From Vulcanimicrobiota bacterium (GTDB taxonomy: Bacteria > Vulcanimicrobiota > Vulcanimicrobiia > Vulcanimicrobiales > Vulcanimicrobiaceae): a stretch of 13,504 bases of DNA. The notes under the pieces were generated by a model. It ran no database searches. It saw nothing but the letters and a program-made list of their open reading frames with translations, and was not told the origin of the DNA. The DNA lies in NCBI GenBank assembly GCA_013289785.1, contig JABCZE010000013.1, positions 1 through 13,504 of the forward strand, read 5' to 3'. The position numbers and the translations under genes are program-made. This document shows positions 2 through 10,977 of the stretch, piece by piece (position 1 is the stretch's first letter; each line of letters begins with the position of its first letter).

Positions 2-427
2 GCTCTCGCGCGCCTGGGAATCGACGTGGATGCCTGGCCGGCGCCGCCGGCGGGGCTCTTCGTCGTCGAAGAGCGCGCGCTTTTTCTGCGATCGCGCAGC
101 CCGATGACCGTGGCCCACGAGTTCGGTCACGCCCTCGACTGCGCGCTGGGGGGCGGCGTCTATCGCAGCAGCATCGATCCGCAAGTCCGGGCGCTCTTTG
201 CCGGCGCGCAAACGTTCGTGACGCCCTACGCCGCAACCGGCGTCGACGAGTACTTCGCCGAGTCGCTGCGGGCATACGTCGAGGCCAACGACTGCGCTTC
301 GCCGTGGCCGCGGGCGACGCGCGCGCGTCTGCGTCACGGCGACCCCGGGATGCACGACTACGTCGAGGCGCTCTTCGAGCGCGAGTTCGGCGAGCGGCTC
401 GACCTGGGGGAGGTCGTCTCTATTTGA
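2..427 (+). CDS. Putative zinc metallopeptidase, C-terminal part (5' end outside window)
   Basis: The reading frame is open from the first bases of the window, so the true start lies upstream and 141 residues are visible. A gluzincin-type motif HEFGH (visible residues 39-43, preceded by VA and followed by ALD) supplies two zinc-ligand histidines and the catalytic Glu. About 40 residues later DEYFAES (visible 82-88) offers a glutamate as likely third ligand. HExxH followed by an (E)YFAE helix resembles the catalytic domain of anthrax-lethal-factor-like (ATLF-like) peptidases and related small bacterial zinc proteases. That resemblance is recalled, not searched. Substrate and location are unknown because any signal peptide would lie outside the window. 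The gene converges on the cytochrome c gene and overlaps its last 8 bases. A GTG at 26 is in frame, but coding character continues upstream of it, so I treat the gene as partial. Confidence 0.7.
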   Translation, partial: ALARLGIDVDAWPAPPAGLFVVEERALFLRSRSPMTVAHEFGHALDCALGGGVYRSSIDPQVRALFAGAQTFVTPYAATGVDEYFAESLRAYVEANDCASPWPRATRARLRHGDPGMHDYVEALFEREFGERLDLGEVVSI

Positions 428-854
428 CCGACTGAACTTGCGCGAGGCTCACGCCGCCGGCGTGATTGGTCCACGAGCTGCGAATGTAGCTGATGACCGC
501 GGCAATCTGATCGTCGGAGATCTGGCCCTTCCAACTCGGCATGATGCCGCTGTAGGCTGCGTTGTTTACCGTCACGCGGCCTTCGAGGCCGTCCTTTACG
601 ATCGCAATCACGGCGACCGGATTTCCCGTAACGACGGCGTTGCCGGCCAGGGGCGGAAACGCTCCGGAGACGCCTTGGCCGCTGGTTTGGTGGCAACTCG
701 AGCAATCGGTCAGATAGACCGTCGCACCGTCGCTGGCCGAGGCTGGATTCTTCATCGCCGCGGCCGACGCCGATGCCCCGGCGCTCGCGGCGTTGGAACT
801 TTTGGTGCAGGCGGCCAGCGCCACGCAAAGCGCGAGCGCAACAGCGATTCTCAT
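420..854 (-). CDS. Class I cytochrome c lipoprotein
   Basis: This 144-residue protein has a short hydrophobic signal ending in a lipobox (LAAC, Cys16), so it is probably lipid-anchored on the outer face of the cytoplasmic membrane. A low-complexity Ala/Ser linker (about 20-42) leads into one mono-haem cytochrome c domain. The haem-binding CSSCH is at 51-55, FPPLAGN at 67-72, and the probable distal ligand is Met105 in IMPSW. The C-terminal helix DDQIAAVISYIRS is typical of the fold. It should act as a small electron carrier; partner oxidase or reductase is not visible. The start was chosen because ATG at 854 gives the complete signal peptide and overlaps the SEDS gene stop as ATGA. The frame stays open far upstream, but that extension is antisense-like shadow of the SEDS gene. 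Finding it at the end of a cell-wall operon is unexpected. Confidence 0.9.
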   Translation of the reverse strand: MRIAVALALCVALAACTKSSNAASAGASASAAAMKNPASASDGATVYLTDCSSCHQTSGQGVSGAFPPLAGNAVVTGNPVAVIAIVKDGLEGRVTVNNAAYSGIMPSWKGQISDDQIAAVISYIRSSWTNHAGGVSLAQVQSVK

Positions 855-2056
855 GTAACTCTCCGAGGACGAGCGCTCATCGCCCAGACGAGCGCCACGA
901 GCAAGAAATTGGCAACCAACGAACTTCCGCCGTACGAGATAAACGGCAGCGTTATGCCGGTTAGCGGCAGCAGACCGATCACGCCGGACACGATGATGAC
1001 GACTTGAAATCCGAGGGTTGCGCCCAGCCCCGCAGCCAGCAGTTTCGTATAAAGGTCGGGCTGCTCGAGCCCGGCGGCTAGAACCCGCCGCACGAGATCG
1101 AGAAAGATCGCCAAGACGACGATCGCGCCGATCAGCCCGAACTCTTCGGCAAGGGCCGCGTACACGTAGTCGGTCGCCACATCCGGAATGAACTGCGGAT
1201 GGCCGAGGCGGTAACCGGTTCCCGCCAAACCGCCGGCCGCAAGCGAATAGTAGGATTGCGAGGATTGAAATCCGGCGCCGAGCGGATCGGCAAAGGGATG
1301 GAACCAAACGGCGATGCGCGTCTGTACGTACGGGTAATGGTGCACGGCCCAAAATGCGCCGGCCGCAAAGAGCAACGCGCCGAATAGCACGATGTCGATC
1401 CGTCGCGTCGCCACGAAAAGCAGCGTAGCAAAAGTTGCCAGCAGCAGCGTCGCCATGCCGAGGTCGCGCTGCACGACCAGAATCGCCATCGACGCTCCCC
1501 AGCCGATAAAGAGCGGCCCGAGATACTTCAGGTTGGCGCGCAACGACCACGGCCGCGCCGTGGCGATGACGTCGGCCATCTCGGCGAGATACGCCGCCAG
1601 GAAGAGCACGATGCAGAGTTTGATCAGCTCGATCGGCTCGTATTGAACCGGCCCGAGCTTGATCCACAGTCGCGCTCCATTAATCTCGACGCCGAAGAGA
1701 ATCAGCAGCGCAAAGAGCGCGAGCGAAGCGACGACCCAGAGATATTTGAACGCCGCAAAACGGCGAAACTGCGTAAAGGCGGGCCCCGCGACCAGCGCCA
1801 GTCCCAGCGACAGCAGCAGCCAAAGTTGCTGGCGATGCGCGAGATCCGGCTTGAGCCGCGCGACCATTGCGAGGCCGAACGCCGCCAGCACGACGGCAAG
1901 TGCGGGAATGACGTCGTCGCGAACGCTCGTCGCCGGCTGCCACAGCACCCACGCCATCGCAAGCACGACCAATGCAACGAGCATCCACGGTGGACCAATC
2001 GTCCCAGCCGGCGCAAACGAGAGCATCAGTGCGGCCACGGCCAGCGCGACGCTCAT
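851..2056 (-). CDS. SEDS-family peptidoglycan glycosyltransferase (RodA/FtsW type)
   Basis: This is a 401-residue polytopic membrane protein with about ten or more hydrophobic segments. SEDS proteins polymerise lipid II into glycan strands with a partner class B penicillin-binding protein. Visible family marks are NGARLWIKLGP (126-136) followed by QYEPIELIK, the loop PFADPLGAGFQSSQS (254-268) containing the catalytic Asp257, EEFG (304-307), and the signature GLLPLTGITLPFISYGGSS (361-379). An additional N-terminal hydrophobic region precedes the usual first helix, as in actinobacterial RodA. Neighbours (two FHA proteins and a PP2C-like gene upstream) match the actinobacterial fhaA-fhaB-pstP-rodA order, so RodA-like is the better guess than FtsW. 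The chosen ATG has no clear ribosome binding site and lies 29 bases after the previous stop. The frame is open back to that stop, so a non-canonical start upstream is possible. No partner PBP gene follows. Confidence 0.9.
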   Translation of the reverse strand: MSVALAVAALMLSFAPAGTIGPPWMLVALVVLAMAWVLWQPATSVRDDVIPALAVVLAAFGLAMVARLKPDLAHRQQLWLLLSLGLALVAGPAFTQFRRFAAFKYLWVVASLALFALLILFGVEINGARLWIKLGPVQYEPIELIKLCIVLFLAAYLAEMADVIATARPWSLRANLKYLGPLFIGWGASMAILVVQRDLGMATLLLATFATLLFVATRRIDIVLFGALLFAAGAFWAVHHYPYVQTRIAVWFHPFADPLGAGFQSSQSYYSLAAGGLAGTGYRLGHPQFIPDVATDYVYAALAEEFGLIGAIVVLAIFLDLVRRVLAAGLEQPDLYTKLLAAGLGATLGFQVVIIVSGVIGLLPLTGITLPFISYGGSSLVANFLLVALVWAMSARPRRVT

Positions 2057-2085: not shown

Positions 2086-2829
2086 TCAGTGGGCGAGCAC
2101 CGCGGCCGCGAGAAACCCGATGGCCGCCGCAATTCCGGTCGCCATGCGCGCGATTACCGGAACGTGAAAGACCACGACGCTCGACGCCGGGAAAATCGCT
2201 CCTTCATCGTCTTCAAACCGCGCGACCAGAATCCGTTCGCCCGGGTCGCTGGCTTCCAATCGCTCCAAGAGCGTTTGCCGTTCGCTCGCCCCTGCAATGC
2301 GCCGTCCCAAAAGCACGATCGCATCGCCGGGAATCAGGCTCACGTTCGAGATGCTTACGTCGAGCACGGGTGCGGCGGCAAACGCCCGCGCCAGCACCGG
2401 GATCGGGCGTTCCTCCATCACGTCGTCGTTGCAGAGCGGCGCGATCGCACCGCCCCGCGCCAGATATGCCGCCGTCGCTCCGGCGTGGATAACATAGGCA
2501 AACCCTTGCACGACGATTACCGCCGTCAACGACGCTGCCGCGGTCACATAATCGTCGTGGTTGGCCGTGTTGGCATAGAGCGACCCGTTTACTCGCGCCA
2601 AAACGGCGAGCATTGCGGTTGCGGCGGCCTGCGGCCGAGCGATGGCGCGCCGGAAGAGCGGACTGCGCATTCGCCCTTGACACTCCGCGCGAAGCCGTGC
2701 GAGCAGGGCCGACTCGATCGGAAGACCGCCCATCTGCCCAAAGCCTCGCGCGACGGCCAGCAGCCACGTGCCGGGGCCCAACTGCAAACTCAAACACGAC
2801 GTCCGGTCGCCGCGGATCGCAAGGGTCAT
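2086..2829 (-). CDS. Degenerate PP2C-like protein with C-terminal membrane anchor (probable pseudophosphatase)
   Basis: The 247-residue protein occupies the position of PstP/PrpC, the Ser/Thr phosphatase partnered with bacterial PknB-type kinases. Its sequence can be laid on the PP2C pattern. VARGFGQMGG (26-35) stands where VADGMGG is expected, HAGATAAYLARGG (115-127) where VGDSRAYL..RG is expected, PGDAIVLLGRRIAG (167-180) where PGDxLLLCSDGL is expected, and GERILVARFE (197-206) where DNxT-VxxRxE is expected. In each block the metal-binding aspartate is gone. A hydrophobic helix at about 216-246 gives a single C-terminal membrane segment, as in PstP, though with almost no extracytoplasmic part. 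Start and stop overlap or closely abut the neighbours (ATGA with the FHA gene), and the frame is intact, so it is not an obvious decayed gene. I infer a non-catalytic scaffold or phosphoprotein-sensing role. The PP2C assignment rests on weak motif similarity plus context. Confidence 0.6.
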   Translation of the reverse strand: MTLAIRGDRTSCLSLQLGPGTWLLAVARGFGQMGGLPIESALLARLRAECQGRMRSPLFRRAIARPQAAATAMLAVLARVNGSLYANTANHDDYVTAAASLTAVIVVQGFAYVIHAGATAAYLARGGAIAPLCNDDVMEERPIPVLARAFAAAPVLDVSISNVSLIPGDAIVLLGRRIAGASERQTLLERLEASDPGERILVARFEDDEGAIFPASSVVVFHVPVIARMATGIAAAIGFLAAAVLAH

Positions 2830-3266
2830 CCGCTGCGCACCGACGTCACGACGAGCCGCGTCGTTCCCAGGTCTATTTCATCGCCCTCGCGGACTTCGAT
2901 CGCCTCGGTGACGCGACGCCCGTTGAGAAAGGTGCCGTTGCGGCTGCGCAGGTCTTCAACGTAGACCACGCCGTCGTAGCTCGACAGGCGCGCGTGCTGC
3001 CGGCTTACCTCGGGATCGTTCACGGCGACGCCCGCATCTTTCGAGCGGCCGATTTCCACCGGTGGGCGCACCTGCAGCGGACGCCGCCCGCCGCGTTCGA
3101 CGATGTCGAAGTCGACCTGCATTGGCGTCAGGGTGCCGATTTCCGCCGCCGCGCGCACGCGGGGGCGCGCGGCCAGCAGCGCTACGGCGGCCAGCGCCGC
3201 GGTGATCTCCAGCGATCCGACGCGCATTTGCGTCGTAAAGCCGGCGACGGCAGCCAGGGCGATCAT
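2826..3266 (-). CDS. FhaB-like membrane protein with FHA domain
   Basis: This 146-residue protein has a hydrophobic N-terminus (segments about 1-10 and 20-33) and a C-terminal forkhead-associated domain (about 52-143). FHA domains bind phosphothreonine peptides. The key blocks are present: EIGRS (71-75), SRQHA (88-92) and RSRNGTFLNGR (107-117). Size, a membrane helix before one FHA domain, and position directly between an FhaA-like gene and a PP2C-like gene correspond to actinobacterial FhaB (FipA), which recruits phosphorylated division proteins at the membrane. It overlaps both neighbours by four bases (ATGA), so translation is probably coupled. The Ser/Thr kinase expected to make its ligand is not in the window. 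Confidence 0.88.
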   Translation of the reverse strand: MIALAAVAGFTTQMRVGSLEITAALAAVALLAARPRVRAAAEIGTLTPMQVDFDIVERGGRRPLQVRPPVEIGRSKDAGVAVNDPEVSRQHARLSSYDGVVYVEDLRSRNGTFLNGRRVTEAIEVREGDEIDLGTTRLVVTSVRSG

Positions 3267-3928
3267 GCCGACTCAAATCTCATTCGCGTGTTTCCAAATA
3301 GCAGCTCATCTCCATCACGCAAGGCTTCGACGCTGACCCGCCGGCCGTTGACGAACGTCCCGTTCGTCGAGCCGAGATCCCGAACGACGGGTTGCGCGCC
3401 GTCAATCTCGACGAGCGCGTGGGCGCGCGAAACGCTGGGATCTACCAGGACGATCTCGCTCTCCTCGCCTCGCCCCACGCGGGTCGCTCCTTCGATGGAA
3501 TATACCCTATCCGGGGGCACGCCCTTGACCATCCGCAAAGAAAAGTGCGTGTCGCGCGTCGCGGCCTCTTCGACTTCGATCGCGACGGCGCCTAACGGCA
3601 CGCTGGCTCGGGGCGCCATGGCAACCCGCGCTTCGCCGCCGGTGAAGGCCACGCCGACCTTCGCGGCTAGATCGTGCAAGAGCTCGGCCCACGCTCGCTG
3701 CAGATACTCCGCGTGCTCGGCGAGGCGATCGAAATCTTCAGGGCTCACGTAGACGGCATAACCGGCGGGAGCGCTCAGCCGGCCGTCGTCGGCGCGCGTC
3801 TGCGCTTCCATCGTCGAGACGAGCTTCCGCGCGATCTGCGCGGGCTCGACATCGCTGGGAAAGGTCTTCGCAAAGGCGCGCTCGATGAACTGCGCGCACG
3901 CCTGCTCGATCTTCGCCAAGAAGCTCAT
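3263..3928 (-). CDS. FhaA-like protein: DUF3662 N-terminal domain plus FHA domain
   Basis: The protein has 221 residues. The N-terminal part (about 1-118; FEQ-type helix IEQACAQFIERAFAKTF then LSAPAGYAVYVSPEDFDRL) resembles the FhaA N-terminal domain (DUF3662). The C-terminal FHA domain (about 143-220) has GRG (152-154), SRAHA (167-171) and GSTNGTFVNGR (186-196), so phosphothreonine binding should be intact. Mycobacterial FhaA binds the phosphorylated pseudokinase domain of MviN/MurJ to restrain peptidoglycan synthesis; an equivalent role here is inference. The linker between the two domains is much shorter than in mycobacterial FhaA. I chose ATG at 3928, because the longer in-frame start at 4021 would overlap rsmB by 80 bases and adds an unconserved basic tail. 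The start follows rsmB by 13 bases, with AAGG directly adjacent that comes from a dispersed repeat. Confidence 0.88.
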   Translation of the reverse strand: MSFLAKIEQACAQFIERAFAKTFPSDVEPAQIARKLVSTMEAQTRADDGRLSAPAGYAVYVSPEDFDRLAEHAEYLQRAWAELLHDLAAKVGVAFTGGEARVAMAPRASVPLGAVAIEVEEAATRDTHFSLRMVKGVPPDRVYSIEGATRVGRGEESEIVLVDPSVSRAHALVEIDGAQPVVRDLGSTNGTFVNGRRVSVEALRDGDELLFGNTRMRFESA

Positions 3929-3944
3929 CCTTCGACTGCGCTCA
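3929..3944 (-). repeat. Dispersed repeat core, copy 1 (rsmB/fhaA junction)
   Basis: CCTTCGACTGCGCTCA on the plus strand is identical over 16 bases to the copy inside hslU. On the minus strand it reads TGAGCGCAGTCGAAGG: its first three bases are the rsmB stop codon and its last base directly precedes the fhaA ATG. Confidence 0.7.
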
Positions 3945-5264
3945 TTGCCGACGGACCAGTCGCGCGATGTAGAATCCGTCGCGCCCGTCGATTCCGGGGG
4001 GCACGAGCACGTCACCGGCATCGGTCAGCAGCGACTCGTAGGCCGCCGGCATCGGGTCGCGTTCGAAGTTCTCTCGCGCCAAGAACCACTCCATCACTTC
4101 CGTCGTTTCGCGCGGGTCCGTCGAGCAAACCGCGTAGACCAGCGTCCCGGACGGGCGGACATGCCGAGCCGCTTGCTCGAGAAGCGCTCGCTGGGTGCTC
4201 GCGAGGCGTTCGCCGTCGGTACTCTGCTTCTTCCAGCGCGCCTCGGGCTGGCGCCCGACGATACCGCTTCCCGAGCATGGGGCGTCGAGCAGCACGCGGT
4301 CGAAATGCTGCTCCTCCGGAAGTAGCGCTTGCGTCGCGTCGCCCGTGACGATGCCGGCAATAACGTCCGCTCGTTCCAAACGCTGTGCCAACGTGGCAGC
4401 CTTGCGCGCGTCGCTCTCGACACAGAGCAGCGTCCCGTCGCGCGCGAGCCGCGCGCCGATTTGCAGCGCCTTGTTTCCTCGCCCGCTGCAAACGTCCAGG
4501 ACGCACTCACCGGGCCGCGGATCGAGCACGCCGGCAGCCATCGCGGAACTCTCCGATTGCGGCCACCAACGACCGTCACCCGCCGCCTCGGAGATCTGTC
4601 CGCGCTGCACCAGCAACGCCTCTGCGACGAAGGGCGACGGGCGCGTCTCCACCCCCGCCGCTGCAAGCTGCGAAGCTGCCTCGTCGACCGTACCGCGAAG
4701 CGCATTGACGACGAGCGCGGGGCTCGCCGGCGCGTTTACCGCCAGGCAGATCTGCTCGAGCGCAACGCCAAAGGTTGCGCGCCATTGGCGCACGAGCCAA
4801 GTGGGAAGCGAATAGCGCGTCGCGAGATACTCGTCTTCGTCAACAAAAAGCTCTCGCGCCGGCGGCGGCGGCCGCTCGCGAAGGAACCTTCGCAGCACCG
4901 CGTTGACCAAGTTCGCCACCCCGCGATGGCCGAAACGTTTGGCAAGGTTGACGAACTCGAACAGCGTCGCATGTTCGTCGGCACGCGTATAGACTAGTTC
5001 GTAAACGGCCAGCCGTAGAATCTCCGCAATAATCGGCGGCAGCTCGGACAACGGCTTCGTTAGCAGCGGATTTAGATACCAGTCCAGCGTGCGCCGCATC
5101 TTGATTGCGCCGTACCCGAGCTCGGCGGCAAATGCGACGTCGCGCGCGCTCAAGCCGGCGCGGCGCACGCGATAATCGAAGGCGGCGTGCGCGCTGCGCC
5201 CGCTCTCCCCGTTAGCGGGAAACACGTCGCTGACGACCCGCAGCGCCAACTCCCGCGCACTCAT
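3942..5264 (-). CDS. rsmB: 16S rRNA (cytosine-967-C5)-methyltransferase RsmB
   Basis: RsmB uses SAM to methylate C967 of 16S rRNA. The 440-residue protein has an N-terminal NusB-like RNA-binding domain (about 1-135), including ELGYGAIKMRRTLDWYL at 48-64, and a C-terminal Rossmann methyltransferase domain (about 235-440). The two catalytic cysteines are present: Cys330 in DAPCSGSG (327-334) and Cys380 in YAVCST (377-382). SAM motif I reads VLDVCSGRGNK (255-265) rather than the usual DxCAAPGGKT, a notable deviation. DGFYIARLVRR at the end is typical. The start overlaps the fmt stop as ATGA. Placement directly after def and fmt is the common bacterial arrangement. Its stop codon lies inside a copy of a dispersed repeat. 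Confidence 0.95.
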   Translation of the reverse strand: MSARELALRVVSDVFPANGESGRSAHAAFDYRVRRAGLSARDVAFAAELGYGAIKMRRTLDWYLNPLLTKPLSELPPIIAEILRLAVYELVYTRADEHATLFEFVNLAKRFGHRGVANLVNAVLRRFLRERPPPPARELFVDEDEYLATRYSLPTWLVRQWRATFGVALEQICLAVNAPASPALVVNALRGTVDEAASQLAAAGVETRPSPFVAEALLVQRGQISEAAGDGRWWPQSESSAMAAGVLDPRPGECVLDVCSGRGNKALQIGARLARDGTLLCVESDARKAATLAQRLERADVIAGIVTGDATQALLPEEQHFDRVLLDAPCSGSGIVGRQPEARWKKQSTDGERLASTQRALLEQAARHVRPSGTLVYAVCSTDPRETTEVMEWFLARENFERDPMPAAYESLLTDAGDVLVPPGIDGRDGFYIARLVRRQ

Positions 5265-10552: not shown

Positions 10553-10768
10553 TCACGCCACGTGGATGATTTCGGCTGCAGAAACGGGGTCGGGGACCCG
10601 TTGACCGGTCTGCCGTAAGAGCTCGACATGCTCTTCGATGGCTTGTCGCACATTCTTCGTGGCTTCGTCGCGCGTCTTTCCGCCGCTCGTACAGCCCGGT
10701 AAATCGGGTACGTAAGCGCCCCACGTTCCGTCCGCTGCCGGCTCCAATATCACGACGTAGTCTTTCAC
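10553..10768 (-). CDS. hicB: HicB-like antitoxin (short form, no DNA-binding domain)
   Basis: This 71-residue protein has the partially degraded RNase H-like fold of HicB/UPF0150: DYVVILEP then WGAYVPDLPGCTSGG (16-30), with PDLPGC as the hallmark, then the helix TRDEATKNVRQAIEEHVELL. The chain ends after this domain (PVSAAEIIHVA), so it carries no C-terminal ribbon-helix-helix or helix-turn-helix, unlike autoregulating HicB antitoxins. It should neutralise the HicA toxin by direct binding; operon control would need another factor. The GTG start overlaps the hicA stop as GTGA, and CAGGCAGG upstream offers a modest ribosome binding site. Confidence 0.87.
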   Translation of the reverse strand: MKDYVVILEPAADGTWGAYVPDLPGCTSGGKTRDEATKNVRQAIEEHVELLRQTGQRVPDPVSAAEIIHVA

Positions 10769-10953
10769 TTCAAACCTGCCTGCTTCAAAATTGAGTTGAG
10801 TATCGAGCGAGGCACGTCGCTCCCCGACAAATGCCCCGCGATTGTGACAACCCCCGGCTTGGTAGGGTGTGTATAGTGCCGATGCGACCCGCGCGTCCGA
10901 GCTAGGGTCCAGCCGTCCCGCTCGATTACTTTGACGATATCTCGGTACTTCAT
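10765..10953 (-). CDS. hicA: HicA-family mRNA interferase toxin
   Basis: The 62-residue protein matches HicA/YcfA in length and pattern. It has the N-terminal helix YRDIVKVIERDGW, the catalytic block TRGSHRHYTHP (20-30) with His24 as the probable active residue, then VVTIAGHLSGSDVPRSILNSILKQAGL. HicA folds like a double-stranded RNA-binding domain and cleaves mRNA when free of HicB. The toxin-first order and the 4-base overlap with hicB are standard for type II hicAB modules. No catalytic residue appears missing, so the module may be functional. It lies between topA and trmFO, two genes commonly adjacent, suggesting insertion. Confidence 0.9.
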   Translation of the reverse strand: MKYRDIVKVIERDGWTLARTRGSHRHYTHPTKPGVVTIAGHLSGSDVPRSILNSILKQAGLK

Positions 10954-10977
10954 TGTTGCCCCGTACGCTCACGCTTA

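Follow-up and report, generated by a model that had tools for sequence, protein, structure and literature searches.

Phosphatases of the PstP/Stp type are usually viewed as the counterpart of PASTA kinases, and PstP itself has an extracellular domain. Two other members of the PP2C fold serve for comparison: RssB of the gammaproteobacteria, which joins a receiver domain to a SpoIIE/RsbU-like PP2C domain, and the eukaryotic TAB1 (2j4o), whose partners differ from those of the module described below. The window, i.e. the whole stretch of 13,504 nucleotides that was analysed (contig JABCZE010000013.1), carries on its minus strand, at 2086..2829, an open reading frame for a 247-residue protein of this fold. 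According to PMC6554272, Mycobacterium PstP (1txo, 2cm1) is likewise a membrane-associated PP2C whose gene accompanies fhaA, fhaB and a SEDS gene, and PstP is the sole annotated Ser/Thr phosphatase in many Actinobacteria. Yet the Mycobacterium protein is an active transmembrane phosphatase whose cluster includes pbpA and kinases, whereas the window protein has lost the metal ligands, ends at the membrane helix, and is encoded apart from pbpA-pknB. Phosphatases of the Stp1/PhpP/PrpC type (NF033484; 2pk0) share with it the fold and a partial sequence match, but not the absence of the catalytic aspartates.

PP2C-fold pseudoenzymes are already known, both in bacteria (RssB) and in eukaryotes (TAB1). 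PMC5468089 presents both as such, with RssB as chiefly an adaptor rather than a phosphatase; PMC10957080 describes RssB with an inactive PP2C-type domain, and PMC12002173 adds PHLPP2. Unlike the window protein, RssB is not encoded in an FHA/SEDS operon, and its receiver domain has no counterpart here: the window protein gave no Pfam match to an N-terminal one, and its AlphaFold2 (AF2) model shows none beyond the PP2C domain and a helix. Among the matches listed from the open-licence literature there was no case of a dead PstP/Stp or of a bacterial PP2C pseudophosphatase of such kind, and nothing relevant by title on phosphatases in Eremiobacterota. The locus presents a gene whose product ordinarily undoes protein phosphorylation in the control of the bacterial cell wall. 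Across a set of uncultured bacteria its catalytic residues are gone; many of these bacteria maintain the presumably inactive protein under selection, and the gene has been deleted in some of their close relatives.

The reading we consider probable is that a PstP/Stp-type PP2C of the FHA/SEDS operon lost metal-dependent catalysis and was kept as a pseudophosphatase anchored by a membrane tail, likely a non-catalytic binder. The PP2C fold is kept, the ligands at motifs 2, 8 and 11 (M2, M8, M11) are lost, the sequence is under purifying selection, and the former active-site region is conserved but altered; these features are those of a pseudophosphatase, and we infer that the protein has no phosphatase activity. 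Its parts are as follows.

2086..2829, minus strand: pseudophosphatase open reading frame, PP2C fold, 247 residues (sequence, homologue search, PDB profile, hhalign, AF2)
2737..2754, minus strand: motif 2 in its present form, VARGFG (residues 26-31), with Arg28 in place of the metal Asp (alignment to the ADGFG of intact relatives; hhalign)
2461..2487, minus strand: HAGATAAYL (residues 115-123) at the site of the GDSRAYL motif (alignment, hhalign)
2299..2313, minus strand: site of motif 8, LLGRR (residues 173-177) instead of LCTDG, with Arg176 in place of Asp and Arg177 in place of Gly (alignment)
2089..2145, minus strand: hydrophobic helix at the C-terminus (residues 229-247), predicted to be a membrane tail (19-residue Kyte-Doolittle mean 1.85; AF2 helix 225-246)

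The motif columns were anchored, in a MAFFT alignment, on intact PP2Cs that occupy the same position in related genomes and carry ADGFG, GDSRAYL, CTDG and GxDN. In the window protein these read ARGFG, GATAAYL and LGRR, and the GxDN segment is a gap. The set of 118 aligned sequences, made up of the window protein plus those 117 homologues, out of 120 listed, that passed a length filter, has no Asp at the M2 position (Arg 104, Ser 13, Ala 1), while R177 is present in all 118 and R176 in 103. The whole M10-M11 segment is gone from the window type, and no Asp is found at M8 or M11. The earlier note had proposed that the catalytic aspartates were lost, and both this claim and its motif register agree with the alignment to intact relatives.

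That the protein is a PP2C homologue, as the same note held, was borne out by several comparisons. hhalign to PP2Cs yielded a probability of 99.8 and an E-value of 1.2e-28 over residues 11-175, which confirms the M2 and GDSR registers; the match ends one residue short of R176, and M1 and M11 lie outside its range. The A1 profile searched against the PDB finds PstP itself (1txo, E 0.0035; 2cm1, E 0.0046), the AF2 model consists of one PP2C domain followed by a C-terminal helix, and Foldseek with the predicted structure matched RssB (3f79, E 8e-6). NCBIfam NF033484 matches the protein at 19 bits (E 8e-4), far from the family cut-off of 230 bits; given that the intact relatives fall below it too (best reported, 145 bits), the cut-off alone is not decisive. 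The C-terminal hydrophobicity is general among the homologues, 108 of 117 exceeding a 19-residue mean of 1.6.

Selection was assessed by the ratio of nonsynonymous to synonymous substitution rates (dN/dS), as pairwise Nei-Gojobori (NG86) medians over pairs with a proportion of synonymous differences (pS) below 0.6. Five groups of dead copies present 0.26, 0.17, 0.24, 0.19 and 0.28, against 0.34 and 0.32 for intact copies, all values being approximate because median dS is 0.6-1.1. The module neighbours range from 0.06 to 0.25 (FtsW), 0.09 to 0.29 (FhaA) and 0.11 to 0.36 (FhaB). Purifying selection thus acts on the dead frame in all five groups, as the earlier note supposed. Across the 118 sequences the former motif blocks have a mean entropy of 0.52 bits, versus 1.04 elsewhere in the domain (p 0.006 by block permutation), and D8, H115 and several Arg are conserved.

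Searched for across the phylum, the family turned up in 91 of 149 genomes. The motif table covers 89 of these, excluding two distant matches at other loci (G005, G014), and the gene tree, computed without the motif columns, has 83 rows, the fragments G053, G095, G036, G104, G114 and G126 being left out. Scoring covered the 98 genomes that offer a usable FtsW, 83 of them carrying the gene and 15 lacking it; six gene-bearing genomes lacking a usable FtsW fall outside. Asp is present at all three of M2, M8 and M11 in 24 genomes (two of which, G075 and G076, carry Glu in the GDSR motif), at two in 1, at one in 4, and at none in 54, a count that includes the fragment G126, where M2 is unread. The intact copies come from one branch of the window's own family, from a second family in the order (f2) and from a further one in the class (f3).

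The window type forms a single clade of 44 rows on the gene tree, with a long stem (1.63). Because the M2 Asp is retained in three members of this clade (G071, G074, G092) and in one of a neighbouring lineage (G117), the sequences look like a stepwise erosion in which M8 and M11 were lost ahead of M2. One partly eroded copy (L042, in G035) reads VADAFG, HLGDARVYL, LCTSGV and STDGAAA, and has kept the M2 and M11 Asp but lost that of M8. The FtsW tree and the differing substitutions suggest two losses of catalysis, in the window type and in the g37/g26/g36 lineage. However, the gene tree joins both (57 rows; SH-like approximate likelihood-ratio test, SH-aLRT, 91), and a single loss is not rejected on the FtsW tree (approximately unbiased test, p-AU 0.554); hence, two independent losses are not claimed. 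In this one operon slot, related genomes range from intact copies over partly eroded and dead ones to deletion, with the kinase and FHA genes retained, a natural series for how a kinase system runs without its usual eraser, and for how a pseudophosphatase arises and disappears.

Several observations weigh against a retained pseudophosphatase. Fifteen of the 98 scored genomes have no gene between fhaB and ftsW, and the genus of the window accounts for five of these (G041, G042, G044, G045, G047; three at least 95% complete). FhaA, FhaB and FtsW were all found in these 15, the fhaB stop and the estimated start of ftsW being -49 to 47 nt apart, and therefore the gene is not essential to the module. 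One leftover aspartate, D8, persists near the shortened M1 loop. The basic substitution at M2 is not universal, 13 of the 118 close sequences having Ser, and other dead lineages Thr, His, Glu, Gln or Ala. Residues 91-103, which belong to no motif, are likewise highly conserved, and folding constraint could partly explain the conservation of the motif blocks; the dS values already given also loosen the dN/dS comparison.

The absences lend themselves to another explanation, which we regard as rather unlikely: a relic in the course of being lost, whose catalysis is unneeded, which drifts under weak constraint and is deleted piecemeal by lineage. A single origin of the deletions is indeed rejected on the FtsW tree (p-AU 4e-8), the substitutions at the former ligand positions vary between lineages, and the long stem of the window-type clade fits as well. 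However, dN/dS is not higher in dead than in intact copies, the former active-site blocks are more conserved than the remainder, and the listed family matches have no internal stops (G053 is split in two at a contig end). It is improbable that the protein is an enzyme still, with other metal ligands or with catalysis that needs no metal: although the conserved blocks, D8, H115 and the Arg residues, and the four copies with an M2 Asp could be so understood, the 54 genomes without any of the three aspartates and the missing M10-M11 segment argue against it. That it is no PP2C, or that a misaligned register hides the aspartates, is scarcely credible, for despite the lack of a Pfam PP2C match and the NCBIfam score far under cut-off, hhalign, the profile search of the PDB, the AF2 fold and the intermediate sequences all agree.

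Under the favoured reading of a retained pseudophosphatase, the protein would bind, without catalysis, a phosphoprotein or a partner in the PknB/FhaA/FhaB/FtsW module, by a logic like that of TAB1 or RssB. Judging from the residues that replaced the ligands, Arg28, Arg176 and Arg177 may form a metal-free anion-binding surface at the former metal positions, and such a surface would hold or shield a phosphorylated target rather than dephosphorylate it. Given that the fold, the conserved former active-site region and the hydrophobic C-terminal helix are kept, the protein is probably a membrane-tethered binding module adjoining FhaB and FtsW, and the signalling scaffold in an FHA/SEDS module put forward in the earlier note is plausible as a putative role. 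Several lineages do without the gene, which makes it likelier that its role is conditional or modulating than that it is essential. More tentatively, and as a possibility we would not bet on, the PASTA-kinase system of this Eremiobacterota branch may be left without its cognate Ser/Thr eraser, which would have turned into a charge-inverted, metal-free phosphate reader. In that case it would hold or protect PknB-phosphorylated targets at the membrane beside FhaB and FtsW, and some lineages would later have discarded it.

A protein kinase domain is present in 147 of 149 genomes, the two exceptions being 63% and 56% complete. Twenty-five kinase loci were read, hand-chosen and mostly the best-scoring rows of the kinase search rather than a random sample; the Gly loop, VAxK, HRD and DFG are present in all 24 that were long enough, 21 of which come from genomes whose phosphatase is dead or deleted. 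PASTA repeats occur in the three full-length kinases scanned. SpoIIE-type domains were found in 147 of 149 genomes; the kinase may therefore have another eraser, and the proposition that these genomes hold no other phosphatase was dropped. The search for a second PP2C, which the earlier note advised, had a mixed outcome in the 43 genomes with a dead or deleted gene whose completeness is 90% or more and whose contamination does not exceed 5%. PF13672 matches elsewhere in five (G050, G073 (below cut-off), G096, G098, G118) and was not found elsewhere in 38, PF00481 and other phosphatase families not being searched; PF13672 is not fully sensitive, as the intact G031 was not listed by it. Among those listed, the NF033484 matches in genomes with a dead copy all lie at the pseudophosphatase locus.

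The immediate neighbours of the gene are as follows.

2826..2829, minus strand: ATGA overlap, the fhaB-like stop and the pseudophosphatase ATG sharing 4 nt (sequence)
2826..3266, minus strand: FhaB-like protein, FHA domain (Pfam/NCBIfam domain scans) and N-terminal hydrophobic stretch (by eye)
3263..4021, minus strand: FhaA, FhaA_N and FHA domains (Pfam)
851..2056, minus strand: SEDS protein of the FtsW/RodA family (Pfam and NCBIfam)

The open reading frame is real: it has 206 homologues at E<=1e-3 among 7999 candidates scored, starts within the FhaB-like stop, and ends 29 nt before the FtsW/RodA-family start. The true start of FhaA is probably near 3928 (MSFLAKIE, by eye). FhaA and FhaB carry the residues of what we take to be the FHA signature (GRS, SRQH and RNG in the FhaB-like protein). 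The PstP-like position was borne out, the order fhaA-fhaB-PP2C-rodA/ftsW matching, but the penicillin-binding protein and kinase genes sit at a second locus. In the window genome both are on contig C207 (L201), the kinase following a PbpA-like gene and running off the end of the C207 sequence analysed; in G041 pbpA-pknB and fhaA-fhaB-ftsW are far apart on a single contig (C1). The comparison with Actinobacteria did not extend to the host, which belongs to Eremiobacterota and is no actinobacterium: the named homologues are mainly Candidatus Cybelea, Baltobacteraceae, Tumulicola and Eremiobacteraeota (two records are labelled otherwise, Binatia and Babeliales), and 16 of 17 matching public contigs are labelled Candidatus Eremiobacterota.

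Between the fhaB stop and the ftsW start lie about 2.5 kb in L167 (G090) and L037 (G091) and about 2.0 kb in L041 (G016), compared with 0.66-1.2 kb at the other gene-bearing loci. The minus-strand genes of the window are topA, trmFO, hslV, hslU, def, fmt, rsmB, fhaA, the fhaB-like gene, the pseudophosphatase and the ftsW/rodA-family gene. The listed frame 420-1667 (minus strand), which overlaps ftsW, appears to prolong a cytochrome c gene far upstream, the cytochrome c domain spanning residues 312-399 only. A metallopeptidase-like fragment (HEFGHAL, by eye) at 2-427 (plus strand) is truncated at the window edge and has only sub-cutoff Pfam matches. Between trmFO and topA, at 10553-10972 (minus strand), lies a HicB-like antitoxin domain (PF15919, E 1e-12).
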